A stretch of 64,000 nt of DNA, from the NCBI RefSeq assembly GCF_007995065.1, contig NZ_VOQR01000001.1:3894998-3958997 (forward strand). The letters run 5' to 3'. Below, one piece after another: positions 26,576-42,112 of this stretch. The stretch's first letter is position 1, and each line of letters begins with the position of its first letter. The notes under the pieces are model-generated. The model was not told the DNA's origin, did not search any database, and saw only the letters and a list, made by a program, of their open reading frames with translations. The stretch comes from Sphingomonas ginsenosidivorax (GTDB lineage Bacteria > Pseudomonadota > Alphaproteobacteria > Sphingomonadales > Sphingomonadaceae). Both the position numbers and the translations under genes were made by a program.

Positions 26576-27868
26576 TTACCGCGCCTCGACCCGCGCCAGT
26601 TTCGGCGACAGCAGATGCACCACAGCGATCGCGATCAGATAGGTGCTCCCCGCGACCGCGAAGATCAGCGTGTAGCTGCCCGTGGTCTGCAGCACGTAGC
26701 CGGTGAACTTCGCCATCATCATGCCGCCGATCGCGCCGACGGTGCCGCCGATCCCGACCACCGAACCCACCGCGCCGCGCGGGAACATGTCCGACGGGAT
26801 CGTGTAGAGGTTCGCCGAGAAGGCCTGGTGCGCCGCGGTCGCGAGCCCGACGATGCCGACGGCCAGCCACAGATTGTCGACATATTGCGCGAAGAAGATC
26901 GGCATCACCAGGAACGCGCAGATCAGCATCACGATCTTCCGCGCGAAATTGGCGCTGTAGCCGCGTCGCATCAGCTTCGACGACGACCAGCCGCCCGCGA
27001 CGCTGCCGATGTCGGAGATCAGGTAGATCGCGACGAGCGGGGGGCCGAAGGACTTCAGGTCGAGATCATAGGTCTTGGCGAGGAAGTCGGGCGTCCAGAA
27101 CAGGAACAGCCACCAGATCGGGTCGATCAGGAACTTGCCCAGCGCGAACGCCCAGGTCTCGCGGTAGCCGAGCAGTTTCAGCCAGCCGATCTTCTCGGCG
27201 GGGTCGGCGGGGTCGCTTTCGATGAAGGCGAGCTCTTCGGCCGAGACCTTGGTGCTCTCGCGCGGGCGGCGGTACATCGCGATCCAGAATACTAGCCAGA
27301 TCAGGCTGAACGCGCCGGTGATGACGAACGCCATCCGCCAGCCGAGGCCTAGGGTCACGACGATGAACGGCACCACCAGCGGCGTGATGATCGCGCCGAT
27401 GTTCGCGCCGGCGTTGAACACGCCGGTCGCCAGCGCCCGCTCGCGCGCCGGAAACCATTCCGACACCGCCTTGATGCCGGCGGGAAAGTTGCCCGATTCA
27501 CCGATGCCGAGCAGCGCGCGCGCCGCGGAGAACTGGAACGCGTTGCCGGCAAAGCCGCACAGCGTGTGCCCGAGCGTCCAGATCACGAACGCGACCGAAT
27601 AGCCGATCCGCGCGCCGAGCACGTCGACGATCTTGCCGAAGCTCAAATAGCCGATCGCATAGGCGGCCTGGAACCAGAAGATGACGTCGGCATAGGTGGT
27701 CTCGTCCCAGCCGAGATCGGCGGAGATGGTGGGTTTCAGCACCCCGATCATCTGCCGGTCGACATAGTTGAGCGCGGTCGCCGCGAACAACAGGCTGCAG
27801 ATCACCCAGCGGTATCGCCCGACCCGGCCGGCCGCGCCGGCGACCTCCGGCATGTCCATCGTTGCCAT
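26576..27868 (-). CDS. MFS hexuronate transporter (ExuT/ACS family)
   Basis: A 430-residue anion:cation symporter-type MFS with 12 hydrophobic segments. Family features are ALNYVDRQMIGVLKP in helix 1, the loop 2-3 motif GKIVDVLGARIGY, ARALLGIGESGNFPAGIKAVSEWFP around helices 4-5 and GWRMAFVITG. Close relatives take up D-galacturonate and D-glucuronate. A GGAGAG site sits seven bases before the ATG, 23 bases after the upstream hydratase gene, so they form one unit headed by the operator at 28726. It supplies galacturonate to UxaC. Confidence 0.86.
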   Translation of the reverse strand: MATMDMPEVAGAAGRVGRYRWVICSLLFAATALNYVDRQMIGVLKPTISADLGWDETTYADVIFWFQAAYAIGYLSFGKIVDVLGARIGYSVAFVIWTLGHTLCGFAGNAFQFSAARALLGIGESGNFPAGIKAVSEWFPARERALATGVFNAGANIGAIITPLVVPFIVVTLGLGWRMAFVITGAFSLIWLVFWIAMYRRPRESTKVSAEELAFIESDPADPAEKIGWLKLLGYRETWAFALGKFLIDPIWWLFLFWTPDFLAKTYDLDLKSFGPPLVAIYLISDIGSVAGGWSSSKLMRRGYSANFARKIVMLICAFLVMPIFFAQYVDNLWLAVGIVGLATAAHQAFSANLYTIPSDMFPRGAVGSVVGIGGTVGAIGGMMMAKFTGYVLQTTGSYTLIFAVAGSTYLIAIAVVHLLSPKLARVEAR

Positions 27869-27891
27869 TGGTCTTCTCTCCAAAAACGCCT

Positions 27892-28689
27892 CTAGCGGGC
27901 TTTGATCGTGCAGGTGACGGCGAACCGCCCGTCGAACTTGGCCTCGACCCGGTCGCCGATCGCGACCTGGTGGACGCCGGTGACCGCGCCGCTCGAAATC
28001 CACTGGCCGGCGCGCAAGGGAATACCACGCTGCGCCATATGTTCGAACAGATAGCGCGCGGCACCGAACGGACCGTCGAGCATCGCCGCCGCGGTCGCCG
28101 CGCCGATCTGCTCGTCGTTGATCCAGAGCTCGATCGGCCAGGTGTTGACGTCGCCGTCGCGCCAGCCCTCGGCCTCCGCACCTACGACCAGCCCGTTGTT
28201 GTTGCCGAAATCGGAGATCGTCGCGGTCGCGCCGTTGCTGTTGATTCCGGGGAAGGGCGAGCTGGCGATCTCGATGCCGACATGCACCGCGTCGATCAGC
28301 GCGGTCGCCTCCGCCATAGTGTACTGCGTCTTGGCGGGGTCGGGTGCGGTGCCGATGCGGAGCAGGAACTCGGCCTCAGCCGCGCCGAAGCCGTCGGCAA
28401 AAACGGGCATCCCGACCGGCGGCTCCGCCTGGTCATGCACCGAACCGGCAAAGATCGGGCCGCTCAGCCGGTCGATCCCGTCGATCGGGGGATTGATCCG
28501 CCCGACCTTCCAGCCGACGACCTCGGCGTCGGACAGCGACAGCGCGTCGTCCTGCACGGCATAGGCTTCGGCCAGCGTGGTCGGCAGCGTGCCGGGATAG
28601 TCCGGCACCGCGATGCCGTTGCGTCGTGCGTCCACGAAGGTACGCGCGATCCGCATGCTGTTGTCGGTCGTGTTCGGCCGTTCGCCCAA
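27892..28689 (-). CDS. 2-keto-4-pentenoate hydratase / fumarylacetoacetate-hydrolase-fold protein
   Basis: About 265 residues of the MhpD-like FAH fold: DAEVVGWKVGRINPPI, AEAEFLLRIG with the acidic metal ligand pair, IDAVHVGIEIASSPFPG, SDFGNNNGLVVG and the C-terminal GAVTGVHQVAIGDRVEA. The start is set at TTG 28689 because AGGAGG lies five bases upstream; the next ATG is at 28656. In aromatic degradation such enzymes hydrate 2-hydroxypentadienoate. Here the gene heads a unit with the hexuronate transporter and has its own LacI-type operator, so a sugar-acid substrate (a diketo-deoxy acid) is more likely. The reaction is not known. Confidence 0.72.
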   Translation of the reverse strand: MGERPNTTDNSMRIARTFVDARRNGIAVPDYPGTLPTTLAEAYAVQDDALSLSDAEVVGWKVGRINPPIDGIDRLSGPIFAGSVHDQAEPPVGMPVFADGFGAAEAEFLLRIGTAPDPAKTQYTMAEATALIDAVHVGIEIASSPFPGINSNGATATISDFGNNNGLVVGAEAEGWRDGDVNTWPIELWINDEQIGAATAAAMLDGPFGAARYLFEHMAQRGIPLRAGQWISSGAVTGVHQVAIGDRVEAKFDGRFAVTCTIKAR

Positions 28690-28725
28690 GAACCCCTCCT
28701 CTATTCTGTTTTGCCGGGGCGTAAT

Positions 28726-28739
28726 GGAAACCGGTGTCA
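28726..28739. promoter_or_regulatory. LacI-type operator before the hydratase-transporter unit
   Basis: GGAAACCGGTGTCA lies between the reductase stop (28750) and the hydratase start (28689). It matches sites at 31680, 32864 and 38917, which all precede uronate genes. The core ACCGGT is self-complementary, as is usual for LacI-family dimers. It implies a second regulated promoter inside the gene train. Confidence 0.7.
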
Positions 28740-28749
28740 CTGACAAGGA

Positions 28750-30186
28750 TCAGGCAAAGAGCTTCACCCAATTTCCGTCATGCGCATCCGTGGCGGCGGT
28801 TTGCAGCGCGGCGACCAGCGCGTCGTCCCCGGCGACGGCGGCGGGGATGCCGAGACCCTGGCGGACCAGCGTGGCGACGACCTCCGCCGGGCTGCCCTGT
28901 GCGGCGATCGACGCCAGCTCGGTCCCGGCGGGATCGACGATCGCGGTCCCGCTGCGCGCCTGACGAATCAGGAACGCGACCCAGCAGCCGATCGCGGCGA
29001 CGACATGAGTCGGCATCCGCCCCGCGTCGCGGTTCGCGATCAGCGTGTCGCCCAGGCGATAGGGGAGCTTCTGCGACCCGTCCTGCGCGATCTGGTCGAG
29101 CCGGTGGACGATCACCGGGTTGCGGAAGCGCTGCAGCACCGCGGCGCGGTAGGCGTCGATGTCGAGCCCGCGGACGCTCGGCAGCATCGGCACGATGTCG
29201 CGCACGATCATCGCATCGACGAAGCCCGCGAGCGCGTCGTCGCGCATCGCGTCGGCGACGCTGGTCGCGCCGCGCAGCAGCCCGGCATAGGCGAGCGTCG
29301 AGTGCGCGCCGTTGAGGATCCGCAGCTTGGCCTTTTCATACCCGCCGACATCGTCGGTGATCGTCGCGCCCGCGCCGGCCAGGTCGGGGCCGAACGGCCG
29401 TCCAATATCCTCGATGACCCACTGCGCGAACGATTCGCGCTGCACCGCAGCCTCGTCGCGCAGACCGATCGTCGCCTCGACATCGTCGTAGAGCGCGGCG
29501 TCGCTGGCCGGCGTGATCGAATCGACCATCGTCGACGGCACGCGCACCTCGGCGGCGATCCAGTCGGCGAGCGCGGCGTCGCGCATCCGCGCGAACGCGA
29601 TCAATGCGGCGTGAAGCTTCGCGCCATTGCTGGCGAGGTTGTCGCACGGCATCGGCACGAACGGCGCGGTGCCGGCGGCTTTGCGCGCGCCGAGCCCGGC
29701 GACCAGCCAGCCGATCAGGCTGCGCGGGGTGTCCGTGCCGGCGAGGTCGTGGACGATGTCCGCATGGTTCATGTCGAGCGTGCCGTCGCCGGCGAGGCAA
29801 TAGCCCTTCTCGGTCACGGTCGACGTCACGAGCTCGACCGACGGGTCGGCGAGCAAGGCATGGATCCGCGCGGCGTCCTCGGGCCCCAGGAATTCGCGGT
29901 GCGCGCCGATGACGCGCATCGACGATTCGGTGTCGCGGATCGCGAGCGTGTAGAGCCCGTCCTGCGCGGCCAGTGCCTCGACCGTCCGACGCGTCCGCAT
30001 CGATACCGCAGCGATCCCCCAGCGCGGATCGTCCGCCAGTACCGCGTCGATATAGGCGGCCTGGTGCGCGCGGTGGAACGCGCCGGGGCCGAAATGCACG
30101 ATCCCGACATGCGGCTCGGTGCGCCCGATCGGGCTCGGCACGGCGACGCGACCCAGCGTCGCCATCGTCAGTCGGGGTGCGGTCAC
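28750..30186 (-). CDS. Mannitol-dehydrogenase-family uronate reductase (tagaturonate or fructuronate reductase)
   Basis: A 478-residue long-chain mannitol dehydrogenase: IVHFGPGAFHRAHQAAYIDAVL at the N-terminus for NAD binding, MPCDNLASNG, KLRILNGAHSTLAYAG with the catalytic Lys/Asn/His region, and FRNPVIVHRLDQIAQDGSQKLPYR. The build is closer to UxuB (fructuronate reductase) than to classical UxaB. The partner dehydratase gene is altronate (uxaA), not mannonate, so it should in practice reduce tagaturonate to altronate, or both. It starts at GTG overlapping the uxaA stop (GTGA). Confidence 0.82.
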   Translation of the reverse strand: MTAPRLTMATLGRVAVPSPIGRTEPHVGIVHFGPGAFHRAHQAAYIDAVLADDPRWGIAAVSMRTRRTVEALAAQDGLYTLAIRDTESSMRVIGAHREFLGPEDAARIHALLADPSVELVTSTVTEKGYCLAGDGTLDMNHADIVHDLAGTDTPRSLIGWLVAGLGARKAAGTAPFVPMPCDNLASNGAKLHAALIAFARMRDAALADWIAAEVRVPSTMVDSITPASDAALYDDVEATIGLRDEAAVQRESFAQWVIEDIGRPFGPDLAGAGATITDDVGGYEKAKLRILNGAHSTLAYAGLLRGATSVADAMRDDALAGFVDAMIVRDIVPMLPSVRGLDIDAYRAAVLQRFRNPVIVHRLDQIAQDGSQKLPYRLGDTLIANRDAGRMPTHVVAAIGCWVAFLIRQARSGTAIVDPAGTELASIAAQGSPAEVVATLVRQGLGIPAAVAGDDALVAALQTAATDAHDGNWVKLFA

Positions 30187-31661
30187 AGGGTAACGCCTCG
30201 TTTCCAGATTGCGATTTCGCGTTCGCCGTTGCGTTCGGCGGCGGTCTCGGCGCCCGATGCGACCGCCATGATGCGCGCGAGCAGCGCATCCTCGGCCGCC
30301 GGGAAGCCGTCGACCAGCACCGCGCCCGCGTCGAAGTCGATCCAGCCGGGCTTGCGTGCGGCAAGGTCGCTGTTCGATGCGATCTTGATCGTCGGCACCG
30401 GGAAGCCGAGCGGCGTGCCGCGCCCGGTCGTGAACAGGATCGCGGTCGCGCCCGCCGCGGCCAGCGCCGTGGATGACACCGCGTCGTTGCCCGGCGCCTC
30501 GAGCATCGTCAGCCCGTCATGCGTGATCCGCTCGCCATAGCCGATGACATCCGACACGGTCGCGCGCCCGGCCTTCTGCACCGCGCCGAGCGACTTTTCC
30601 TCGAGCGTCGTGATCCCGCCCGCGACGTTGCCGGGGGAGGGGTTCTCCGACACCGGCTCGCCGTGGTCGATGAAATATTGTTTGAAGTCGTTCACGACGT
30701 GGACGATCCGGTCGAAGATGCCGGCGTCCGCCGCGCGGTTCATCAGCAACTGTTCGGCGCCGAAGACCTCGGGGATCTCGGTGAAAACCGCGCGGCCGCC
30801 CGCCGCGGTCACGCGGTCGCTCATCCGCCCGACCAGCGGGTTGGCGGTCAGCCCCGACAGCCCGTCCGACCCGCCGCACTTGACGCCGAGCACGAGGCGA
30901 TCGAGCCCGACCGTGGTCCGCGGCGTCGCCGCGAGTGCAGCCAGTTCGGCGACCAGCGCACAGCCTTCCTCGACTTCGTCGCCGCTAAGTTGCGTGGTCA
31001 TCGTGCGGATCATCGCGTGGCGCTCGGGCGGGATCGTCGCCATCAGCGCCTTGATCTGGTTTTCCTCGCACCCCAGCCCGACGATCAGCACGCCGCCGGC
31101 ATTGGGGTGACAGGCCAGACTCGCCATGATCGTGCGGGTGCCGTCGAGGTCGTTGCCGAGCTGCGAACAGCCATGCGGATGCGTGAAGGCGTGGACGCCG
31201 TCGACCGTGTCGCCGACCAGCGCAGCAGCCTTGGTCGCAATCCGCTCGGCGGTGCGCGCGACGCAGCCGACGGTCGACAGGATCCAGATCTCGTTGCGCG
31301 TGCCGACGCGGCCGTCGGCGCGGACATAGCCGTCGAAGGTCGCCGTGGACGGCGCCGTCGGCAATGAGGCTGGCGCCGGGTCGAACCGATAGGCGAGGGT
31401 GCCTTCGAGCCCGGTCTTCAGATTATGCGCATGGACGTGCTCGCCCGCCGCGATCGCCGTGCTCGCCCGGCCGATCGGGAATCCGTATTTGAGGACGGGC
31501 GCGGCGGCGGCGATCGGCTGCAGCGCGATCTTGTGCCCGCGCCCGATGTCCGACGATGCAGTGACGACAGACCTGCCAACTTCGACATGGTCGCCGCTGC
31601 GGACGTCGTCGAGCAGCGTCGCGACGCTGTCGCCCGGATCGACTCTCAGGGCCCTCGCCAT
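30183..31661 (-). CDS. uxaA: Altronate dehydratase UxaA
   Basis: A 492-residue protein with both UxaA parts: the N-terminal SAF domain (about 1-90, GHKIALQPIA and EHVHAHNLKT) and the C-terminal catalytic domain (GYVRADGRVGTRNEIWILSTVGC, FTHPHGCSQLG, GLGCEENQ, GVKCGGSDGLSG, NPSPGN) whose Cys residues bind the metal. It dehydrates D-altronate to 2-keto-3-deoxygluconate in the cytoplasm. The promoter region to the left carries an operator 19 bases before the ATG, shared with the divergent lacI gene. It is first in the operon and overlaps the reductase gene. Confidence 0.93.
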   Translation of the reverse strand: MARALRVDPGDSVATLLDDVRSGDHVEVGRSVVTASSDIGRGHKIALQPIAAAAPVLKYGFPIGRASTAIAAGEHVHAHNLKTGLEGTLAYRFDPAPASLPTAPSTATFDGYVRADGRVGTRNEIWILSTVGCVARTAERIATKAAALVGDTVDGVHAFTHPHGCSQLGNDLDGTRTIMASLACHPNAGGVLIVGLGCEENQIKALMATIPPERHAMIRTMTTQLSGDEVEEGCALVAELAALAATPRTTVGLDRLVLGVKCGGSDGLSGLTANPLVGRMSDRVTAAGGRAVFTEIPEVFGAEQLLMNRAADAGIFDRIVHVVNDFKQYFIDHGEPVSENPSPGNVAGGITTLEEKSLGAVQKAGRATVSDVIGYGERITHDGLTMLEAPGNDAVSSTALAAAGATAILFTTGRGTPLGFPVPTIKIASNSDLAARKPGWIDFDAGAVLVDGFPAAEDALLARIMAVASGAETAAERNGEREIAIWKRGVTL

Positions 31662-31679
31662 CGCATCCTCTTATATGTT

Positions 31680-31693
31680 GGGAACCGGTGTCA
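31680..31693. promoter_or_regulatory. LacI-type operator between uxaA and the lacI-family gene
   Basis: GGGAACCGGTGTCA lies in the 102-bp divergent spacer, 19 bases upstream of the uxaA start and 71 bases upstream of the regulator start. It fits both repression of uxaA and autoregulation. Three further copies of the motif are described at 28726, 32864 and 38917. Confidence 0.75.
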
Positions 31694-31763
31694 GATCATG
31701 CCCTTGTGGGCGGCCCGGTGCAAGGCTGTTCGTCGGCGCACGACGCGGCTATGCCTTAGCGTC

Positions 31764-32834
31764 ATGCAGAAGACCGGCCAACCCACGATCAACGACGTCG
31801 CCCGTTTGGCGGGGGTTTCAAAGAAGACGGTCAGCCGGGTCATCAACCGCTCGCCGCTGCTCAACGGCGATACCCGGAAACGCGTCGAGGACGTGATCGG
31901 CGAGATCGGCTACATCCCCAATCCGCAGGCCCGCGGCCTCGCGCTCAGGCGCAATTTCCTGATCGGGCTGGTGCACGACAACCCCAACGCGCAGACCGTG
32001 ATGAACGTGCAGCAGGGCATGCTCGAGGCGCTGCGCGGCAGCGAATTCGAGATGGTGGTGCGGCCGCTCGATCGCGGGTCGGCGACGATGCTGCAGGACC
32101 TGCGGCATTTCCTCGAGCGCCAGCGGCTGTTCGGCGTGCTGCTGATGCCGCCGATCAGCGAGAACGACTCGGTTGCGGCTTTGTGCGATTCGATCGGCTG
32201 CCGCTACGTCCGGATGGGGTCGGTGGCGCTCGACGACACTGATCACATGGTCGCGTCGAACGACCGCGAGGCGGTATGCGCGGCGACGGACTATCTGATT
32301 GCACAGGGGCATCGCCGGATCGGGCTGGTCGGCGGGCCGCACGGCTTTCGATCGGCGCGTGAACGCCGGCTGGGGTTCGAGGATGCGATGGCGAATGCGG
32401 GGATCCCGTTGCCGCGCAGCATGATCGCCGACGGCAACTACACGTTCGATTCAGGGTTGGTCGCGGCCGAACGGCTGCTCGACCTGACGCCGCGGCCGAC
32501 CGCGATCTTCTCGTCCAACGACGAGATGGCGGCGGGCGTGATCCATGCGGCGCGGCAGCGCGGGCTCGACATTCCGCGCGACCTGTCGATCATCGGCTTC
32601 GACGACACGCCGATCGCGGCGCACGTCTGGCCGCCGCTGACCACGGTGCGCTGGCCGATGACGTCGATGGCACGATCGGCGGCGCTGAAGCTGATCGCAG
32701 GCGAGGACGGCATGCCTGCCGAGGTCGAGGAGCCGTCGCTGTTCCTCTCGACGCTGATCCGCCGCGCCTCGGTCGCGCCCCCGCAGGCGAGCCCGGCGGC
32801 GACCGCGGCTACACCGTCGGACGATCCGTCCTGA
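31764..32834 (+). CDS. LacI-family transcriptional regulator of uronate genes
   Basis: A 356-residue LacI/GalR repressor. The N-terminal helix-turn-helix TINDVARLAGVSKKTVSRVI and hinge NPQARGLALRR are followed by a periplasmic-binding-like effector domain (IGLVHDNPNAQ, HRRIGLVGGPHGFRSARERRLGF, AIFSSNDEMAAGVIHAARQ, LSIIGFDDTPIAAHVWPPLTTV). It is divergent from uxaA and precedes uxaC. By context it senses galacturonate, glucuronate or 2-keto-3-deoxygluconate, and the GGNAACCGGTGTCA motif is its likely site. The tail is Ala/Pro/Thr-rich and disordered. Confidence 0.9.
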   Translation: MQKTGQPTINDVARLAGVSKKTVSRVINRSPLLNGDTRKRVEDVIGEIGYIPNPQARGLALRRNFLIGLVHDNPNAQTVMNVQQGMLEALRGSEFEMVVRPLDRGSATMLQDLRHFLERQRLFGVLLMPPISENDSVAALCDSIGCRYVRMGSVALDDTDHMVASNDREAVCAATDYLIAQGHRRIGLVGGPHGFRSARERRLGFEDAMANAGIPLPRSMIADGNYTFDSGLVAAERLLDLTPRPTAIFSSNDEMAAGVIHAARQRGLDIPRDLSIIGFDDTPIAAHVWPPLTTVRWPMTSMARSAALKLIAGEDGMPAEVEEPSLFLSTLIRRASVAPPQASPAATAATPSDDPS

Positions 32835-32863
32835 CGGCCGTCGTGACGGGTTGCGCGACCAAC

Positions 32864-32877
32864 TGACACCGCTTACC
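32864..32877. promoter_or_regulatory. LacI-type operator upstream of uxaC
   Basis: TGACACCGCTTACC, the reverse complement of GGTAAGCGGTGTCA, lies 51 bases before the uxaC ATG and 30 bases after the regulator stop. One position of the ACCGGT core differs from the other copies. It suggests uxaC-kduI-kduD-kdgK has its own regulated promoter. Confidence 0.65.
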
Positions 32878-32927
32878 AGCGGCGTCGCAACAGCATGGGC
32901 GATGCGCCCGGCACGAGAGGACGAATG

Positions 32928-34358
32928 ATGGCACGGCCACTGGAACTCCATCCGGACCGACTGTTCCCGGCCGATCCCACCACGCGCGACATTGCCCGCG
33001 CGCTGTACGCGGAGATCGCCGACCAGCCGATCGTCAGCCCGCACGGCCATACCGACCCGGTCTGGTTCGCCGACAACGCGGCATGGACCGACGCGACCAG
33101 CCTGCTGCTCGCGCCCGACCATTATCTCTACCGGATGCTCTACAGCCAGGGGATCGCGCTCGACGACCTCGCGATCCCGCGGCTGAGCGGCGTGCCCGCG
33201 ACCGATCCGCGCGCGGCGTGGGCGCTGTTCGCGCAGAACTACACGCTGTTCCGCGGCACGCCGTCGCGGATGTGGCTCGACCATGTGTTTGCGGACGTGT
33301 TCGGCTTCGACGTCGCGCTGGAGGCGTCGACCGCGGACCTCTATTTCGACACGATCACCCAGAAGCTCGCGACCCCTGAATTCCGCCCGCGCGCGCTGTT
33401 CGAGCGGTTCCGCATCGACTTCCTCGCGACCACCGAGGGCGCGCACGACGATCTCGCCGCGCATGCCCGCATCCGCGAATCGGGCTGGCAGGGCAGGGTG
33501 GTCACGACCTATCGCCCCGACGGCGTCATCGACGTCGAGCACGAGGCGTTCGGGCCAGCGATGGCGCGCTTCGCCGAGCTGACGGGCGAGGACGTCTATA
33601 GCTGGACCGGCTATCTCGCCGCGCACCGCAAGCGCCGCGCCGCGTTCCGCGCCGCCGGCGCCACCGCGACCGACCATGGCCACCCGACCGCCGCTACCGC
33701 GAACCTGTCCGCGGTCGAGGCCGAGGCGCTGTTCGCGAAGGTCACGCGCGGCGACTGGACTCCGGCCGATGCCGAGCTGTTCCGCGCGCAGATGCTGACC
33801 GAGATGGCGGCGATGTCGGTCGAGGACGGCATGGTCATGCAGATCCATCCGGGTTCGTCGCGCAACCACAATGCCGGGCTGTTCGCGACACATGGTCGCG
33901 ACAAGGGCGCCGACATCCCGACGCGCACCGATTACGTCCATGCGCTGCAGCCGTTGCTCGACCGGTTCGGGACCAGCACGACGCTGTCGATCATCCTCTT
34001 CACGCTCGACGAAAGCACCTACGCGCGAGAGCTCGCGCCGCTTGCGGGCCATTATCCGTGCCTCAAGCTCGGGCCGTCCTGGTGGTTCCACGATAGCCCG
34101 GAGGGGATGCGCCGTTTCCGCGAGCAGACCACCGAGACCGCGGGCTTCTACAATACCGTTGGGTTCAACGACGACACCCGCGCCTTCCTGTCGATCCCCG
34201 CGCGTCACGACGTCGCGCGCCGCGTCGACTGCGGCTTCCTCGCGCGGCTCGTCGCCGAGCACCGCATCGCCGACTGGGAAGCGGCCGAACTCGCATATGA
34301 CCTGACCACCGGACTCGTCCGCCGCGCCTACCGGATCGACGAAAAGACGGTGGGATAG
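32928..34358 (+). CDS. uxaC: Glucuronate/galacturonate isomerase UxaC
   Basis: A 476-residue amidohydrolase-superfamily isomerase matching UxaC in full (E. coli 470). [10 protein letters not shown] and [17 protein letters not shown] carry the metal-binding Hx[54 protein letters not shown] and [23 protein letters not shown] are all conserved. It converts D-galacturonate to tagaturonate and D-glucuronate to fructuronate. Two ATGs are in tandem; the second is chosen because GAGAGG lies seven bases before it. It heads the plus-strand uronate operon. Confidence 0.95.
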
Positions 34359-34437
34359 CATTCCAATATATGTAATTGACTGCCTATCCCCTTCCCGGAC
34401 GCCCCAACGCGGCGCGTCGCATCGACCGGAGCTGACC

Positions 34438-35277
34438 ATGTACGAGCGCACTTATTACGCCACGCACCCCGACATGATGGAGTGCGTCTCGAACGACGAA
34501 CTGCGCGACCGCTATCTGATCCAGGACCTGTTCCGCGACGGTGAGTGCGTCCTCAACTACACGCATGCCGACCGCATGGTCATCGGCGGCGTCGCGGTGT
34601 CGAACGGCAGCGTCGCGCTGCCGCACCAGACCGAGCCGGCATCGGCTGCGGGCCATCCGTTTCTCGAGCGACGCGAGCTCGCCGTCGTCAACGTCGGCAG
34701 CACCGAAGGCACCGTGACCGTCGACGGCGAGACGTTCACGCTCGGCAACAAGGACTGCCTGTACGTCACGATGGGCGCGACCGACGTGTCGTTCTCGGGC
34801 GACGGCGCGCGCTTCTATCTGGCGTCGTGCCCGGCGCACAAGGCGTTCACCACCCGCGTCGTCTCGGTCGCGCAGTCGACCACGCTCGAGCGCGGCAGCC
34901 TCGAGGAGTCGAACGAGCGTACCATCCACCAGATGGTCATCCCCGGCATCTGCGACAGCGCACAGCTGGTCATGGGCCTGACCGTGCTCAAGCCGGGCAG
35001 CGTCTGGAACACAATGCCGCCGCACATCCACGAGCGGCGCTCGGAAATCTATTTCTACTTCGAGCTCGACGGCCCGAACGACCGCGTGTTCCACTACATG
35101 GGCGAAGGCGAGGCGCTGCGTCACATCGTGATCGCGAACGAGGAAGCCGTGATCAGCCCGCCCTGGTCGGTGCACATGGGCTCGGGCACCAAGGCGTATG
35201 CGTTCATCTGGGCGATGGCCGGTGAGAACCAGGACTATACCGACATGAACGTCCTCGACATCTGCCAGCTGGCGTAA
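34438..35277 (+). CDS. kduI: 5-dehydro-4-deoxy-D-glucuronate isomerase KduI
   Basis: A 279-residue cupin protein, the usual KduI length. The C-terminal cupin shows [18 protein letters not shown] with His near 196 and 198 and Glu near 203, and [10 protein letters not shown] with His near 245, the four expected zinc ligands. It isomerises 4-deoxy-L-threo-5-hexosulose uronate, formed from unsaturated galacturonate made by PL22 and GH105, to 3-deoxy-D-glycero-2,5-hexodiulosonate. A GGAG site six bases before the ATG supports the start. It is followed by a palindrome and then kduD. Confidence 0.95.
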
Positions 35278-35281
35278 AGCC

Positions 35282-35377
35282 CCCCTCCCGCTTGCGGGAG
35301 GGGCTGGGGGGAGGGGCTGTCCTCCCGCGGCGCCTCCCGACAGGCCCTCCCCTAACCCCTCCCGCGAGCGGGAGGGG
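35282..35377. repeat. Pair of G/C-rich palindromes between kduI and kduD
   Basis: Two near-identical hairpins, CCCCTCCCGC..GCGGGAGGGG, occur at 35282-35303 and 35356-35377 and can also pair with each other around a 52-nt loop. The right arm ends in GGGAGGGGAATGAGG just before the kduD ATG, so it supplies the ribosome binding site. The element fills the whole gap between two genes of one operon. Confidence 0.8.
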
Positions 35378-35390
35378 AATGAGGTATTTT

Positions 35391-36146
35391 ATGACCAATC
35401 CCTTCGATCTGACCGGCAAGGTCGCCGTCGTTACCGGCGCCAACACCGGCATCGGCCAGGCGATCGCCGTCGCGCTCGCGGAAGCCGGCGCCGACGTCGC
35501 CTGTGTCGGCCGCACCCCCGCCGAGGACACCGTCGCGAAGATTCACACGCTCGGCCGCAAGGCGGAGATCGTCTCGGCTGATCTCTCGTCCATCGAACCC
35601 GTCCAGCGCGTCGTCGACGAGACGATCGCCAAGCTCGGCGGCCTCGACATCCTGATCAACAATGCCGGCATCATCCGCCGCGCCGACGCGGTCGACTTCT
35701 CGGAAGCGGACTGGGATGCGGTGATCGACACCAACCTCAAGTCGGTGTTCTTCCTGTGCCAGGCGGCCGGGCGGCACATGATCGCGAACGGTGGCGGCAA
35801 GATCGTCAACATCGCGTCGATGCTGACCTTCCAGGGCGGCATCCGCGTGCCGAGCTACACCGCGTCCAAATCGGGGATCGGCGGCATCACCAAGCTGCTC
35901 GCCAACGAATGGGCGTCGAAGGGCATCAACGTCAACGCGATCGCGCCGGGCTATATCGCGACCAACAACACCGCGGCGCTGCAGGCCGACGAGGAGCGCA
36001 ACGCGTCGATCCTCGGCCGCATCCCCGCGGGCAAATGGGGCGATGCGAGCGACCTCGGCGGCGCGGCGGTGTTCCTGTCGTCGGCGGCGGCAAACTATGT
36101 GCAGGGGCATATCCTGGCGGTCGACGGCGGCTGGCTGGCGCGCTGA
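35391..36146 (+). CDS. kduD: 2-dehydro-3-deoxy-D-gluconate 5-dehydrogenase KduD
   Basis: A 251-residue SDR: MTNPFDLTGKVAVVTGANTGIGQAIA with the TGxxxGIG loop, NNAGIIRR, and the active-site SYTASKSG (Tyr near 155, Lys near 159). The family features NPFDLTGKVA and QGHILAVDGGWLAR are typical of KduD. It reduces the diketo acid from KduI to 2-keto-3-deoxygluconate. The start follows a GAGG six bases upstream which belongs to the right arm of the preceding palindrome. Confidence 0.93.
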   Translation: MTNPFDLTGKVAVVTGANTGIGQAIAVALAEAGADVACVGRTPAEDTVAKIHTLGRKAEIVSADLSSIEPVQRVVDETIAKLGGLDILINNAGIIRRADAVDFSEADWDAVIDTNLKSVFFLCQAAGRHMIANGGGKIVNIASMLTFQGGIRVPSYTASKSGIGGITKLLANEWASKGINVNAIAPGYIATNNTAALQADEERNASILGRIPAGKWGDASDLGGAAVFLSSAAANYVQGHILAVDGGWLAR

Positions 36147-36159
36147 TCAGAGCAGGTCG

Positions 36160-36237
36160 CCTCACCCTTCCCACCCGGCTGCCGCCGGGCGGGCCCCTTC
36201 TTGCTCCCGATGGGAGAGGGAGCGGCGATGGGTGAGG
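36160..36237. repeat. Interspersed palindrome between kduD and kdgK
   Basis: Outer arms CCTCACCC (36160-36167) and GGGTGAGG (36230-36237) enclose inner inverted stretches rich in CCGCCGGGCGGGCC and CTCCCGATGGGAGAGG. It occupies nearly the whole 113-bp gap. A separate good ribosome site, AAGGAG, follows it and serves kdgK. The element may trim expression of the downstream genes. Confidence 0.65.
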
Positions 36238-36259
36238 GCGAGGTTTAAGGAGCGATAGA

Positions 36260-37267
36260 GTGGCGAAGTTACTGGCTTTCGGCGAAATCATGCTCCGCCT
36301 GTCGCCCCCCGGGCGCGAGCTGCTGTTGCAGACGCCCAAGCTCGACGTGTGGGTCGCGGGCGCCGAGGCGAACGTCGCGACTCAGCTCGCCAAACTCGGC
36401 CATGATGTCGGTTTTGCGAGCATGGTGCCCGACAACGACCTCGGCCGCTCGGCGGTGACGACCCTGCGCGGCCACGGCGTCGACACCAAAGGCATCGCGC
36501 TCGGCGGCGAGCGGATGGGGCTGTATTTCGTCACCTCGGGCGCCGGCATGCGCGCGACCGAAGTGATCTACGATCGCGCCTGGTCGTCGTTCGCGCAGGC
36601 ACCGACCAGCGCGTGGGACTGGGACACGCTGCTTGACGGCGTCGACCGGCTGCATCTCTCGGGGATCACGCCCGCACTCGGGCCGGTGCCGGCGCAGAGC
36701 GCACTCGCCGCGGTCCGTGCCGCCAGCGAGCGCGGCATCGCGGTGTCGTTCGACGGCAACTGGCGCGGCAAATTGTGGGAGCGCTGGGACGCCAACCCGC
36801 GCGCGATCCTGACCGAGCTCGTCGAGCATGCCGACCTGATGTTCGGCAACCACCGCGACATCGCGCTGCTGCTCGGCCGCGAGTTTCCGGGCGGCGCGGA
36901 GGATCGCCGGCGCGAGGCGGTCGAGGCCGCGTTCGACGCCTTCCCGAAGCTGCAGACGGTCGCCTCGACCGCGCGGCATGTCGAGCATGTCGACCTGCAC
37001 CGGCTGTCGGCGCGCGTCGATACGCGCGCGGGCCATGCGCAGACCGACGAGGTCGTGCTGGCCGGGATCGTCGACCGGATCGGCGGCGGCGACGCGTTCG
37101 CGAGCGGCGTGCTCCACGCGTTGCGCTCAGGCGAGGACAGCGCCGGCGCGGCACGCACGGGGCTAGCGCTCGCGGCGCTCAAGCATTCGCTGCCGGGCGA
37201 TGCCTCGCTGTTCCGCCAGGTCGATATCGACGCGTACCTCGCCGGCGGGCTGGATGTCCGCCGCTGA
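36260..37267 (+). CDS. kdgK: 2-keto-3-deoxygluconate kinase KdgK
   Basis: A 335-residue PfkB/ribokinase-family kinase starting at GTG, seven bases after AAGGAG. LLAFGEIMLRLSPPG at the N-terminus, VWVAGAEANVATQLAKLG for the substrate lid, and DRIGGGDAFASGVLHAL with the catalytic Asp and anion hole near residue 277 are all family features. It phosphorylates KDG, the meeting point of the Uxa and Kdu branches, to KDPG. The matching KDPG aldolase is not in the window. The downstream esterase gene overlaps its end by 14 bases. Confidence 0.92.
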   Translation: MAKLLAFGEIMLRLSPPGRELLLQTPKLDVWVAGAEANVATQLAKLGHDVGFASMVPDNDLGRSAVTTLRGHGVDTKGIALGGERMGLYFVTSGAGMRATEVIYDRAWSSFAQAPTSAWDWDTLLDGVDRLHLSGITPALGPVPAQSALAAVRAASERGIAVSFDGNWRGKLWERWDANPRAILTELVEHADLMFGNHRDIALLLGREFPGGAEDRRREAVEAAFDAFPKLQTVASTARHVEHVDLHRLSARVDTRAGHAQTDEVVLAGIVDRIGGGDAFASGVLHALRSGEDSAGAARTGLALAALKHSLPGDASLFRQVDIDAYLAGGLDVRR

Positions 37268-38804
37268 CGGCTGGACGCGGCGCGCGGCGCTGGGGGGCGT
37301 CGGCGCCGCGCTGATCGCCGGGCGCGGCATTGCCGCACCTGTGCAGGCCAGAGCCGGCGGGTTTGCGGGTATCACCGAAGGCGGCGTCACGCGCTTCCTC
37401 GGCATCCGCTATGGCCGGGCGCAGCGGTTCAAGGCATCGATCGCGGAGCGCCGCGCTGGCGGTATCGTCCAGGCTACGGCGTTCGGCCCGGTCGCGCCGC
37501 AGGGTGGCGCCTATGCCCCGCAGTCCGAGGACTGCCTGTTCCTCAACATCTGGACCGCTGCGGCCGATGCGCGCGCGAAGAAGCCGGTGCTGCTCTACAT
37601 CCATGGCGGCGCCTATTCGAACGGCAGCGTCACCGATCCGCTCAATGACGGGCAGGCGCTGGCGTCGCGCGGCGATTGTGTTGTCGTCACCGTCAACCAC
37701 CGGCTGAACGCGTTCGGCTATCTCTATCTCGCGCGGTTGTCCGCGGCATTTCCCGACAGCGGCAATGCCGGGCAGCTCGACCTGATCCTCGCGCTCAAAT
37801 GGGTGCGCGACAACATCGGTGCGTTCGGTGGCGATCCAGCCCGCGTCATGGTGTTCGGCCAGTCTGGCGGCGGCGCCAAGATCGCGACGATGATGGGCAT
37901 GCCCGCCGCGGCCGGGCTGTTCCAGCGCGCCGCGACGATGAGCGGGCAGCAGGTCACCGCGTCGGGCCCGCTCAACGCCACCGCGCGCGCGCGCTCCTAT
38001 CTCGCGAAGCTCGGGGTCCGCGAGAGCGATCTCGCGCCGCTGCTCGCGATGCCGGTCGAGCGGTTGGTCGAGGGGCTGTCGGCGATCGATCCGATCCTCG
38101 GCGGAGGGGTGTATTTCGGGCCGGTGCTCGACATGACCTGGCTGACGCGGCACCCGTTCTGGCCCGATGCAAACCGGCAATCGCTTAGCATCCCGATGAT
38201 GCTCGGCAACACGCACCGCGAGACCGGCGGGTTCCTGGGGCCGGATTCGCCCAAGGTGAAGGGGCTCGACTGGAGCAACCTCGCCGATCGCATGGCGCCC
38301 GAGCTGAAGATCGATATCCTCCCCGAATGGGTCGTGGCGCAGTACCGCGCGCGCTACCCGGACTGGACGCCGACCGACATCTTCTACGATGCGACGACCG
38401 CTGGGCGCAGCTGGCGTGGACAGGTGATCGAGGCGGAAGCGCGCGCGGCGGCGGGTGCGCCGGCGTTCGTCTATCAGGTCGACTTCGCCTCACGCACCGA
38501 GCCGCGCCGCGGGGCGTTCCACACCATGGATATCCCGCTGGTGTTCGGGACACTCGGCGCGGCGGGATCGCAGACCGGCACTGCCGCGGACGCGCGCGCG
38601 GCGTCGAAGGCGATGCAGGACAGCTTCGTCGCGTTCGCCGCGACCGGCGACCCCAACCATGCCGGCCTGCCGCGCTGGTCGCGCTACGACACGCGGACGC
38701 GTGCGACGATGGTCTTCGACACGCGCAGCCATGTCGAGAACGACCCGAGGCGCTGGCAGCGCGAGCTGTTCGCGCGCGTGCCCTACATCCAGCCGGGGAC
38801 CTGA
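37254..38804 (+). CDS. Type-B carboxylesterase, Tat-exported
   Basis: A 516-residue carboxylesterase/lipase of the COesterase family. A Tat-like leader TRRAALGGVGAALIAG starts it. GITRFLGIRYG-like GVTRFLGIRYG, SEDCLFLNIW, YIHGGAYSNGS (oxyanion hole), FGGDPARVMVFGQSGGG (Ser near 204) and a late His in PNHAGLPRW/GAFHTMDIPLVFG give the family. The ATG lies 14 bases inside kdgK, implying translational coupling. In this locus it could deacetylate or demethylate pectin fragments, or cleave feruloyl esters; the substrate is not shown by sequence. Confidence 0.82.
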   Translation: MSAADGWTRRAALGGVGAALIAGRGIAAPVQARAGGFAGITEGGVTRFLGIRYGRAQRFKASIAERRAGGIVQATAFGPVAPQGGAYAPQSEDCLFLNIWTAAADARAKKPVLLYIHGGAYSNGSVTDPLNDGQALASRGDCVVVTVNHRLNAFGYLYLARLSAAFPDSGNAGQLDLILALKWVRDNIGAFGGDPARVMVFGQSGGGAKIATMMGMPAAAGLFQRAATMSGQQVTASGPLNATARARSYLAKLGVRESDLAPLLAMPVERLVEGLSAIDPILGGGVYFGPVLDMTWLTRHPFWPDANRQSLSIPMMLGNTHRETGGFLGPDSPKVKGLDWSNLADRMAPELKIDILPEWVVAQYRARYPDWTPTDIFYDATTAGRSWRGQVIEAEARAAAGAPAFVYQVDFASRTEPRRGAFHTMDIPLVFGTLGAAGSQTGTAADARAASKAMQDSFVAFAATGDPNHAGLPRWSRYDTRTRATMVFDTRSHVENDPRRWQRELFARVPYIQPGT

Positions 38805-38812
38805 GCCCTTTC

Positions 38813-38836
38813 ATCCTCCCTCTTGCGGGGGAGGAT
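38813..38836. repeat. Short palindrome after the esterase gene
   Basis: ATCCTCCC (38813-38820) pairs with GGGAGGAT (38829-38836) over an 8-nt loop, a short relative of the kduI-kduD element. It lies 9 bases after the esterase stop and is a reasonable terminator, though no T-run follows. Confidence 0.55.
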
Positions 38837-38888
38837 TGAGCGTGACCCGAAGCACCGATGCTCCCGTCCGTTTGCGACGACGCGATGT

Positions 38889-38930
38889 TGACACCGGGAT
38901 CGTCCGTAAGCATGGCTGACACCGGTTACC
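38889..38930. promoter_or_regulatory. LacI-type operators upstream of the TonB receptor
   Basis: TGACACCGGTTACC at 38917-38930 is a full copy of the motif found before uxaA, uxaC and the hydratase gene. A degenerate copy, TGACACCGGGATCG, sits 28 bases upstream at 38889-38902, sharing the whole left half. The pair lies about 177 bases before the receptor ATG and 61 bases before the small leader ORF. The rest of the 302-bp spacer holds the palindrome at 38813 and the leader ORF. Confidence 0.7.
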
Positions 38931-38990: not shown

Positions 38991-39110
38991 ATGGCAGGAC
39001 GTGCCGCCACGCTATCCCCTTCCGCATCGTTTGCGCCGGTTCGTCGTCCTCCGGGACGGGCGAAGCATGCGGTGCAAAAACGGTTTCGGCCGAAGGGGAT
39101 GGATATATGA
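38991..39110 (+). CDS. 39-residue basic leader ORF overlapping the TonB receptor start
   Basis: This short ORF begins at ATG 38991 with an excellent AGGAGG site six bases upstream and ends with TGA at 39108-39110, overlapping the receptor start as ATGA. The product is very basic (11-12 Arg/Lys) and Pro-rich, and has no recognisable domain. The layout predicts translational coupling or a leader peptide. The alternative, that the receptor itself starts at ATG 38987, would put a long non-signal-like extension before the signal peptide, and the SD would be only two bases away. Confidence 0.5.
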   Translation: MAGRAATLSPSASFAPVRRPPGRAKHAVQKRFRPKGMDI

Positions 39111-42100
39111 CAGACTTCGCAACGGCCTCGCGGCGGTTCTCCCGCCTTTCCGGTGTCTCCGGCACCGCATTGGCGCTGTCGCTCCTGCTGCCGGCGAGCG
39201 CGTTCGCGCAGGCCGCGGCGATCCCCCAGACGGCGACCCCGGGTACGCCCGCGCAGACCGATCCCTCGCCTGCACAGACCGCGATTGCGCCTGCCGAGGG
39301 CGCCAACGATCCCGCCGCGACGACCGCGGCACCGCAAACCGTCGATGCCGACTCCGACGCCGACATCGTCGTCACCGGTTTCCGCCGCTCGCTCGACGCC
39401 GCGCTCAACGTCAAGCGCGAGTCGGTGTCTGCGGTCGACGCCATCGTCGCCGAGGATATCGCGAAATTCCCCGACCAGAACCTGGCCGAATCGCTGCAGC
39501 GCATCCCCGGCATCTCGATCCAACGTGACGCGGGCGAGGGCCGCGCGATCACCGTGCGTGGTCTCGGCGCGCAGTTCACTCGCGTCCGGGTCAACGGCAT
39601 GGAGACGGTCGCGACCTCGACCGACGGCGCCAGCGCCAACCGCGACCGCGCGTTCGATTTCAACGTGTTCGCGTCCGAGCTGTTCAACTCGATCGTCGTC
39701 CACAAGACCGCCGAGGCGTCGCTCGACGAAGGCTCGCTCGGCGCGGTGGTCGACCTGAACACCGGCAACCCGCTCGGCGGCAAGGCAGGCTTCACCTTCG
39801 TCGCCTCGGCGCAGGCGAGCTACAACGACCTCAGCAAGAACACGCGGCCGCGGCTCGCCGGGCTGCTGTCGTTCAAGTCGCCCGACGGCACGTTCGGCGC
39901 GTCGGTATCGGCGGCCTATTCGAAGACCGACAATCTCGAACTCGGCAACAACACGACGCGCTGGGCACAGGCGCGGTTCGATTCGGTCAACGGCACGCCG
40001 TGCTTCTTCAATTCGAACACCGGCACGACGCGGGTGGCCAATGCCGGCGGCTTCTACCGGCCGAGCGCGGCGTGCGACCAGGCGGCGCTCGCCTTCCACC
40101 CGCGTATCCCGCGTTACGGCGAGATCTTCCACGGCCGCGAACGCCTGGGCATCACCGGCAGCGTGCAATGGTCGCCGAGCGACGCGACCAAGATCTCGAT
40201 CGACGGCCTCTATTCGCGGTTCAAGGAAACGCGCGAGGAGAAATGGGGCGAGGTGCTGCTGCGCTCGAACGAACGCTCGATCGACCTCAGTAACGTCCAG
40301 TATGACAACAACAACAACCTGATCGCGGCGACGCTCAACGACGCCTGGGTCCGGACCGAACATTATCTGCGCAAGTCGAAGACCGAATTCTACCAGCTCG
40401 GCGGCAGCTGGGACCAGGACGTCACCGACCGGTTGCGCTTCACGCTGATGGGCGGCTTCTCCAAGTCGACCGCGAGCATCCCGGTCGAGACGACCTTCGT
40501 GTTCGACGACCGCGACGCCACCGGCTACCGCTACGACTATACCAATTCGCGCAGTCCACTGCTGACCTTCGGCACCAGCGTGACCGATCCGGCCAATTTC
40601 CAGCTCGCCGAAATTCGCGATCGGCCGTCGGAAACGGTCAACAAGTTCCGCACCGCGCAGCTGCGCACCGAATATGACGTCGCCGAGGGCTTCAAGCTCA
40701 AGCTCGGCGGGCTCTACCGCAAATTCTCGTTCGATACCGAAGCCTATACCCGCGATGCGGTCATCTGCCCGGCGGCGGGGCGCGACGTGGTGCTCGGCAC
40801 GATCACCTGTTCGGCGGCGTCGCTGTTCGGCCCGACCGCGGTCTATGGCTATCCAGCAGGCAACCTCGGCGAGACGTTCACGGTCGGCAAGGCCGGCCAG
40901 CCGAGTGGCAACACCAACGCCTTCCTGATCCCCAACATCGACGCGTCGGCGGCGTTCACCGGGCTCTACAACCGGCCCAAGGTCGCCGACGCGGGCAACA
41001 TCCGCAGCGTCAGCGAAGAGGTCACCGGCGGGTACGGCGAGGTCGACGTGAAGGGCTCGGTCCTCGGGCTCGACTATGCCGCCAACGCCGGCGTCCGCTA
41101 CGTGCACACCGCGCAGAGCTCGACCGGGCTCAACAACGGCCTCGCGGTGACGATCGCGCGCAGCTACGACGACTGGTTGCCGGCGATCAACGTCGCGCTG
41201 TTCCCGACCAGCACCGTCATCCTGCGCGGCGCGATCTCGAAGGTGCTGACGCGGCCGACTTTGGGCAACCTGACCCCCGGCGGATCGGTCGACGGCTTCA
41301 ACTACCGCGTCACCTTCGGCAATCCGCAGCTCGACCCATTCCGCGCCACCGCGTTCGATCTGGCCGCCGAATGGTATTTCGCGCCGCAGTCGATCTTCTC
41401 AGTCGCGGCGTTCAAGAAGAAGGTCGAGAGCTTCCCGGTATCGCAATCGGTCAGCGGGTCGTTCGAATCGACCGGGTTGCCGCGATCGGTGATCCCGCCG
41501 TCGAGCCCGGCCGCGCTGCCTCAGAATGCCGACCAGCTCTACACGATCACCTCGCCGGTCAACGGTTCGGGCGCATCGCTCAAGGGCGTCGAGATCGCGC
41601 TGCAGACGACGTTCCGTTTCCTGCCGGGCTTCCTCAAGAACTTCGGCGCGATCGCCAACGCGACCTTCATCGATTCGACCGCGACCTACACGGTGCAGGG
41701 GCCGACGGTGAACCCGTGCGTCGCCGGCGCGACCCCGGCGGCGGCGTGCACCTTCGGTCCGAACGTCTCGGTGTCGCGGAAGGGCACGCTGTTCGGCCTG
41801 TCGAAGCGCCAGTATAACGGCACGCTGTACTATGAGGACGCGAAGTTCTCGGCGCGCAGCTCGATCAGCTATCGCGGGCCCTATGTCGACCAGAACAGCG
41901 CGACCGGCAACGTGTTCGAAGGGTATAACTCGACGATCAACGTCGATGCGTCGGTGCGCTACAAGCTGACGCCGAGCCTGGAGATCTCGCTCGAGGGCAC
42001 CAACCTGACCGACGAATATCGCGATCGCTACACCGATCTCGATGCCAACCGGAACTACGAGAACAACCACTTCGGCCGCACGTTCCTGGCTGGCGCGCGA

Positions 42101-42112
42101 TTCAAGATGTAG
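39107..42112 (+). CDS. TonB-dependent receptor for pectin oligosaccharides
   Basis: A 1001-residue outer-membrane receptor. The signal peptide (about residues 1-35, LSLLLPASAFAQ) is followed by a Pro/Thr/Ala-rich stretch, a TonB-box-like ADIVVTGFRRSL, and the plug (NLAESLQRIPGISIQRD, GRAITVRGLGAQFTRVRVNGM). The beta barrel follows with SLEGTNLTDEYRDRYTDLDANRNYENNHFG near the end. This is the carbohydrate type common in sphingomonads, without SusD. Two LacI-type operators upstream tie it to the uronate regulon, so uptake of oligogalacturonate or rhamnogalacturonate fragments is the likely job. Confidence 0.9.
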   Translation: MTDFATASRRFSRLSGVSGTALALSLLLPASAFAQAAAIPQTATPGTPAQTDPSPAQTAIAPAEGANDPAATTAAPQTVDADSDADIVVTGFRRSLDAALNVKRESVSAVDAIVAEDIAKFPDQNLAESLQRIPGISIQRDAGEGRAITVRGLGAQFTRVRVNGMETVATSTDGASANRDRAFDFNVFASELFNSIVVHKTAEASLDEGSLGAVVDLNTGNPLGGKAGFTFVASAQASYNDLSKNTRPRLAGLLSFKSPDGTFGASVSAAYSKTDNLELGNNTTRWAQARFDSVNGTPCFFNSNTGTTRVANAGGFYRPSAACDQAALAFHPRIPRYGEIFHGRERLGITGSVQWSPSDATKISIDGLYSRFKETREEKWGEVLLRSNERSIDLSNVQYDNNNNLIAATLNDAWVRTEHYLRKSKTEFYQLGGSWDQDVTDRLRFTLMGGFSKSTASIPVETTFVFDDRDATGYRYDYTNSRSPLLTFGTSVTDPANFQLAEIRDRPSETVNKFRTAQLRTEYDVAEGFKLKLGGLYRKFSFDTEAYTRDAVICPAAGRDVVLGTITCSAASLFGPTAVYGYPAGNLGETFTVGKAGQPSGNTNAFLIPNIDASAAFTGLYNRPKVADAGNIRSVSEEVTGGYGEVDVKGSVLGLDYAANAGVRYVHTAQSSTGLNNGLAVTIARSYDDWLPAINVALFPTSTVILRGAISKVLTRPTLGNLTPGGSVDGFNYRVTFGNPQLDPFRATAFDLAAEWYFAPQSIFSVAAFKKKVESFPVSQSVSGSFESTGLPRSVIPPSSPAALPQNADQLYTITSPVNGSGASLKGVEIALQTTFRFLPGFLKNFGAIANATFIDSTATYTVQGPTVNPCVAGATPAAACTFGPNVSVSRKGTLFGLSKRQYNGTLYYEDAKFSARSSISYRGPYVDQNSATGNVFEGYNSTINVDASVRYKLTPSLEISLEGTNLTDEYRDRYTDLDANRNYENNHFGRTFLAGARFKM

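Follow-up and report, generated by a model that had tools for sequence, protein, structure and literature searches.

This work concerns a uronate-utilization gene cluster of Sphingomonas ginsenosidivorax and the LacI-family regulator encoded within it. The DNA analyzed, referred to here as the window, is a stretch of 64,000 nucleotides (assembly GCF_007995065.1, contig NZ_VOQR01000001.1, positions 3,894,998 to 3,958,997 of the forward strand), and coordinates are those of the window unless a genome locus is named. The regulator gene (31764..32834, plus strand) encodes a protein of 356 amino acids with a helix-turn-helix (HTH) domain (PF00356, 64.5 bits against a cutoff of 27) and a sugar-binding domain (PF13377, 133.8 bits against a cutoff of 26.5); its recognition sequence reads SKKTVSR. 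It is the only LacI-type HTH gene in the window, as an earlier note made from the letters of this DNA had stated, and one of five in the genome. Around it lie four copies of a 14-bp element, all exactly at the positions given in that note. From comparison of these sites with those of related bacteria, we regard the 14-mer as very probably the operator of the 31764 protein, which would repress four promoters until a uronate or an intermediate of catabolism releases it. Read in the direction of the regulated gene, the motif is best given as TGACACCGGTTWCC.

Each of the four sites is associated with a different transcription unit. Operator O1 (TGACACCGGTTTCC, 28726..28739, minus strand) points towards a hydratase-like gene and is conserved upstream of the orthologous gene in relatives. 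O2 (TGACACCGGTTCCC, 31680..31693, minus strand) lies between the altronate dehydratase gene and lacI and could double as a site of lacI autoregulation. O3 (TGACACCGCTTACC, 32864..32877, plus strand) is located upstream of uxaC, and O4 (TGACACCGGTTACC, 38917..38930, plus strand) upstream of a TonB-dependent receptor gene. The regulator gene adjoins these targets and has a site in its own upstream region. The ACCGGT core is self-complementary, as noted earlier, and has the central CG usual for LacI operators. The sites had also been described as each standing upstream of a uronate gene unit, which is true except at 28726: this site is in the gap that follows the uxuB-type gene and belongs to the hydratase-like gene and an MFS transporter gene, with no core uronate enzyme among them.

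On the minus strand, the cluster comprises an altronate dehydratase-type enzyme (uxaA, 30183..31661; PF20629, PF04295, and PF08666), a mannitol-dehydrogenase-family reductase of the uxuB/uxaB type (28750..30186; PF01232 and PF08125, with the best NCBIfam models below their cutoffs), a 2-keto-4-pentenoate-hydratase-like protein (27892..28656), and an MFS transporter (26576..27871; PF07690) whose start codon is not fixed. The hydratase-like protein gave no match in a Pfam search; its assignment follows NCBIfam NF008461 (E value of 3.6e-14, below cutoff) and PDB entry 1sv6 (E value of 2.8e-9). The plus strand carries the uronate isomerase gene uxaC (32895..34358; PF02614, with NF002794 over its cutoff), kduI (34438..35277; PF04962), and a short-chain dehydrogenase (35385..36146; PF00106 and PF13561; start codon not fixed) for which the name kduD is suggested by its position beside kduI. 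These are followed by a PfkB enzyme of the 2-keto-3-deoxygluconate kinase type (36260..37267; PF00294, with NCBIfam sugar-acid kinase models below cutoff), a carboxylesterase (37200..38804; NCBIfam esterase matches below cutoff, with an orthologue at L139 that matches PF00135), and the TonB-dependent receptor (39107..42112; TIGR01782, 628 bits against a cutoff of 310). Judging by these annotations, the gene set fits the use of galacturonate and unsaturated uronates. The hydratase-MFS unit ends with a 1,260-amino-acid LamG-containing protein (22736-26518) that is kept in many relatives; apart from LamG, Pfam gave no domain for it, and the PDB gave no sequence match at an E value of 0.01.

To place the four sites in a wider context, the window and the 4.14-Mb genome (two contigs) were scanned for the motif. 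The pattern GGNAASCGGTGTCA has 4 exact matches in the window. With up to two mismatches there are 9 window matches, compared with a mean of 2.95 and a maximum of 8 in 100 shuffles; at up to three mismatches, enrichment is weak: the window has 12 matches, the shuffles average 5.96, and 3 of the 100 shuffles reach 12. Genome-wide, exact GGNAASCGGTGTCA occurs 5 times, 4 of them inside the window, and tolerance of one mismatch yields 11 matches versus 4 for a reversed control pattern. The fifth exact match (C1:2710505) falls within the start of the coding region of another TonB-receptor gene; at this locus (L001:1501; L103:1501), a TGACACCGGTGGAC core stands approximately 150 bp upstream (L103:1355). 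The stricter TGACACCGGTTWCC has 2 exact matches in the source genome, both in this cluster, so the random spread over the genome that the earlier note had named as an argument against its reading was not seen. The core TGACACCGGT has 12 genome matches, 9 of which lie outside the cluster and are without the TTNCC right half; two of these 9 are at other TonB-receptor genes.

Conservation was assessed in relatives, taken as the best 80 of 95 regulator loci (90% to 48% identity); adding the window gives 81 loci. Among these best 80 loci, the nearest relatives of the regulator are from Sphingomonas, at up to 90% identity. The genes of the window were mapped in all 80 loci, followed by the motif scan. 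With at most one mismatch to TGACACCGGTTACC, the 81 loci contain 240 matches, of which 229 fall in the 250 bp that precede mapped cluster genes; such zones account for only 158 kb of the 1.52 Mb scanned. Six permuted 14-mers gave 0 matches in the same loci. Depending on the class of site, the mean information content is 1.62 to 2.00 bits per base within the site compared to 0.11 to 0.97 in the flanks. The motif also follows rearranged clusters: in Azospirillum, Niveispirillum, and Asticcacaulis, where gene order is partly different, it is still located upstream of the same genes. A separate group of loci (L057, L064-L073, and L075) holds the regulator, hydratase, MFS transporter, and esterase genes together with the motif, with no mapped uxaC, uxaA, or uxuB; the receptor gene is present there as well, except on the short contig L067. 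In these bacteria the regulator may outlast the isomerase route, although uxaC, uxaA, and uxuB may lie elsewhere in the genome.

A set of 147 genomes, all belonging to the order and taken from a larger group, was used to examine co-occurrence of motif and regulator. A regulator orthologue was defined as a best match with an E value below 1e-90, a cutoff chosen after seeing the list. Exact TGACACCGGTTWCC was found in 40 of the 147 genomes, and a reversed control pattern in 4. The exact motif is present in 33 of the 34 genomes with an orthologue and in 7 of the 113 without one (Fisher P = 8e-25, a value to be read in light of the post hoc cutoff and the nonindependence of related genomes). Relaxing the cutoff to 1e-85 adds genomes G124, G035, and G059 and changes the counts to 35/37 versus 5/110. 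The recognition sequence gives a matching picture. Helices could be read at every one of the 80 loci except L095, which is cut (79 loci), and in 10 further genome stretches; SKKTVSR is present in all 89. None of the other four LacI proteins of the genome has it; they read SPMTVSR (twice), HPGTVSR, and SQPTVSR. The sites, their conservation, and their co-occurrence with the regulator can be read directly from the DNA, and the link from the sites to the 31764 protein, which the earlier note had offered as an inference, is now strongly supported by conserved sites, by co-occurrence, and by a recognition sequence that accompanies the motif in relatives and is not shared by the paralogues.

The seven motif-bearing genomes without an orthologue divide into three that hold the cluster and four with a single match. 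In G035 and G059, the cluster and motif are accompanied by a regulator of 43% identity that keeps SKKTVSR and lies approximately 4 kb from the nearest site. The third genome, G137, is discussed below. The single matches in G115, G020, G050, and G056 look like chance occurrences, with no mapped cluster gene within the 4 to 4.5 kb examined. Among the motif-bearing genomes, G089 has 12 exact matches, 3 of them in its cluster; of the other 9, 8 fall inside selected open frames and 1 (L138) between frames. With no mapped cluster gene nearby, these 9 were not counted as regulon members.

Promoter-like elements were assigned around each operator, and for comparisons among relatives, sites with similar flanks (62% identity) were removed in a dereplication step. 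For the hydratase promoter, the putative −35 element is TTGTCA (28741..28746, minus strand) and the putative −10 element is TACGCC (28718..28723, minus strand), with TTG and TA at these offsets in relatives. Of 53 dereplicated hydratase sites, 43 have TTG exactly 7 bases ahead of the operator (66 of 76 before dereplication), and 42 of these 43 also have TA 17 bp after the TTG hexamer. From these offsets, O1 would fill the 17-bp spacer between the −35 and −10 elements. At uxaC, the putative −35 element TTGCGC (32851..32856, plus strand) is likewise at an offset shared by relatives: TTG precedes the operator by exactly 13 bases in 26 of the 30 sites left after dereplication, in 40 of all 44, and in 38 of 52 when uxaC, kduI, and esterase sites are pooled. 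The putative −10 element of uxaC, TACCAG (32874..32879, plus strand), was placed by 17-bp spacing and is a poor consensus match; the four bases TACC with which it starts also end O3. For uxaA, the putative −10 element CATGAT (31695..31700, minus strand) lies one base from O2; the −35 element TTGCAC (31718..31723, minus strand) is a weaker assignment, since no TTG offset is fixed among relatives (best, 8 of 41 sites). At the receptor, the putative −35 element TTGACA (38888..38893, plus strand) is followed after 17 bp by the putative −10 element CATGGC (38911..38916, plus strand), which abuts O4. Six Novosphingobium loci (L078, L080-L083, and L090) have a repeat, TTGCCT ... AAGGCAA, ahead of the operator in the region upstream of uxaA or lacI; it perhaps represents two facing −35 boxes or the site of a second regulator.

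The sites and their offsets are visible in the DNA itself; binding of the protein to them, its action as a repressor and not an activator, the extent of each operon, and the nature of the effector are inferences, as follows. A dimer of the 31764 protein would bind TGACACC/GGTTWCC with its hinge helices at the central CG and thereby block RNA polymerase at the promoters of the hydratase-MFS unit, the uxaA-uxuB unit (with lacI divergent), the uxaC-kduI-kduD-kdgK-esterase unit, and the TonB receptor. The operator would fill the spacer at the hydratase promoter, run from the spacer into the putative −10 element at uxaC, and abut or nearly abut the −10 element at uxaA and the receptor. The repressor would be released by a uronate or by an intermediate of catabolism. 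Steric repression is the likely mechanism because the operator sits on promoter-like elements at offsets that are fixed for hydratase and uxaC. Activation, or a combination of activation and repression, is predicted for some global LacI-family regulators, and PMC4052901 predicts such dual action for PckR. For the 31764 protein, we consider this very improbable: with the promoters assigned as proposed, each operator is within its core promoter or immediately downstream of it, where a bound protein would obstruct polymerase, and none is upstream of its −35 element.

Several observations weigh against the assignment of the 14-mer to the 31764 protein as its operator and repressor. Genome G124 has a regulator match just outside the cutoff (47% identity, E value of 2.7e-89) and no exact motif. 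Genome G005 has an orthologue with SKKTVSR and no exact motif; a relative of the motif with 3 mismatches, TGTCACCGGTATCA, lies near its uxuB. Conversely, G137 carries the motif and cluster genes with a best regulator match of only 36% identity. The proposed −10 elements, themselves assigned by sequence, are poor consensus matches. Finally, the two half-sites differ, with near-full symmetry in only 3 of 271 collected sites. These 271 sites came from a search that tolerated one mismatch in the left eight bases and thereby favored well-matching left halves, so that part of the asymmetry is built in by the site definition.

Such points leave some room for a different protein, either one of the four LacI paralogues or an unrelated factor, to bind the operator while the 31764 gene merely travels along. 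Pairing of protein and operator rests here on sequence comparison, the genome has four more LacI-HTH genes, asymmetric half-sites are atypical for a simple LacI dimer site, and G137 has the motif with no close regulator match. However, the motif tracks this orthologue rather than LacI genes generally (126 of the 147 genomes have some match to the 31764 protein and only 40 have the motif), and regulators that go with the motif retain SKKTVSR, which the paralogues lack. Furthermore, the cluster of G137 is on contigs of 10 and 3.7 kb in a 60-contig assembly, with no regulator in the pieces examined, and the gene may simply be missing from the assembly. Taken together, the evidence makes a different binding protein highly unlikely, and the 31764 protein remains the preferred candidate.

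The earlier note had also reported a degenerate operator copy at 38889, a position that now appears to belong to the receptor promoter. The sequence matches 11 of 14 operator positions (3 mismatches), and TGACACCGG is common to it and the operator, which would allow for a genuine weak auxiliary operator with the −35 overlap being secondary. Its counterpart in relatives is TTGACA, which 40 of 49 receptor sites have ahead of the operator at offsets of 29 to 38 bases (after dereplication, 21 of 29, against a shuffle mean of 0.27). Hexamers beginning with CA, most commonly CATTGT and CAATGT, mostly follow 17 bp after TTGACA, and then comes the operator. The continuation of TTGACA into CCGG, by contrast, is seen at a single receptor site, that of the window. 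An auxiliary operator thus seems unlikely, and the supposed copy is most likely the −35 box of the receptor promoter, as the frequency of TTGACA at receptor sites and the confinement of CCGG to the window suggest. TTGACA was rejected as an explanation of operator orientation everywhere, being found in 40 of 49 receptor sites but in 0 of 76 hydratase, 0 of 41 uxaA, and 1 of 44 uxaC sites.

The asymmetry of the operator was further characterized in the 271-site set. The central CG is present in all 271 sites and the left half TGACACC in 263, and the right half, read on the other strand, is mostly GGTAACC (123) or GGAAACC (77), so that the symmetry seen is partial. In terms of orientation, 166 of the 271 sites are directed exclusively towards mapped genes and 29 exclusively away from them, and the other 76 are flanked by divergent genes, with the related genomes not being independent. 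Strict orientation of the operator was rejected, as the relocated uxaC of G036 has the opposite arrangement (L150) and the second receptor site, described below, is inverted. A single directed 14-mer fitted into three promoter geometries could explain both the asymmetry and the orientation bias, and would be conserved throughout Sphingomonadales, with echoes in other orders of alphaproteobacteria. In this arrangement, the TACC of the right half would start the −10 element of uxaC, the operator would fill the 17-bp spacer at hydratase, and it would cover the start site at the receptor. At base 12, all 44 uxaC sites have A and 70 of 76 hydratase sites have T, which would suit a −10 role at uxaC. 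However, A is also the most frequent base 12 among receptor sites (38 of 49) and uxaA sites (23 of 41), where no −10 role applies, and this counts against such fitting. We therefore treat the fitting of the operator to its promoters as a tentative and rather doubtful explanation.

In 21 loci, a second, inverted operator-like site is located 130-174 bp downstream of the receptor operator (e.g., L017:17486 and 17639), often at a spacing of 148-151 or 138-140 bp. Four further site pairs are spaced by 70, 100, 145, and 146 bp (L160, L139, L168, and L167, respectively). By a hand estimate from ten clade-collapsed values, periodicity of the spacing at 10.5 bp has R of ∼0.49 and P of ∼0.09; DNA looping at the receptor is not claimed. 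The counterpart in the window, 39064-39077, matches 8 of 14 positions, which is within chance.

Control of uronate genes by LacI-family proteins is already known as a kind. According to PMC4052901, LacI motifs are mostly even palindromes with highly conserved repeats and a central CG, and most LacI regulators are autoregulatory and serve sugar-use genes. The ExuR, KdgR, UxaR, and UxuR regulators described there resemble the present system in their family, in having a uronate-use regulon and a central-CG operator, and in having a site beside their own gene. The Sphingomonas regulon differs from these in the apparent asymmetry of its half-sites and in the inclusion of a TonB receptor. In the passages of that source consulted, UxaR, UxuR, and KdgR are named for Bacteroides, with no mention of Sphingomonadales, and the comparison is by description. 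There is also precedent for a LacI-type repressor with a TonB receptor and an MFS transporter under its control: SuxR of Xanthomonas campestris, described as a LacI/GalR-type repressor (PMC1790865), is encoded beside the MFS transporter and TonB receptor it controls, but in response to sucrose rather than uronates. The UxuR and ExuR regulators of gammaproteobacteria and the UxuR of Rhodobacteraceae likewise regulate uronate genes but belong to the unrelated GntR family (PMC9369180 and PMC5507952, respectively). With regard to the LacI recognition code, residues 15 and 16 are said to set specificity (PMC2978694); by that description, the 31764 protein has the TVSR set and a central-CG operator, and its code residues 15 and 16 are probably KK. 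We found no description of the present regulon in the literature searched, a scope that leaves subscription journals, supplements, and RegPrecise outside, and a literature search for motif strings did not return TGACACCGGTTACC among the matches listed. Caulobacter presumably has a hexuronate regulator, HumR, which the literature searched did not return; the name HumR is also in use for a Yersinia receptor.

In all, this is a solid, fairly ordinary regulon that is kept in many related bacteria. It provides a usable operator-regulator pair for uronate use in sphingomonads, many of which are plant living, and links a TonB-dependent receptor with uronate compounds. With operator and promoter fitted so closely, it would also make a clean case for studying the co-evolution of a repressor site with its promoter. 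Lone exact sites in relatives point to esterases, an apiosidase-like enzyme, and transporters as possible further members. Nine stretches around such sites were inspected in five related genomes (L148-L155 and L157). Four of them (L148, L151, L153, and L157), as well as the lone sites L172 and L173 of G071, have no assignable fitting gene. A fitting gene is present in the other five, namely, GDSL esterases (L149 and L152), an apiosidase-like protein (L155), a divergent TonB-receptor/MFS pair (L154), and the relocated uxaC (L150). The fitting genes suit pectin use; because the stretches were picked for their sites, these genes are leads only. Two of the 80 loci, L068 and L074, come from records titled Bacillus sp. 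2B10 and Arthrobacter sp. TPD3018 and contain Sphingomonas-type clusters with regulators of 70% and 88% identity, respectively; these are probably mislabelled or mixed assemblies.

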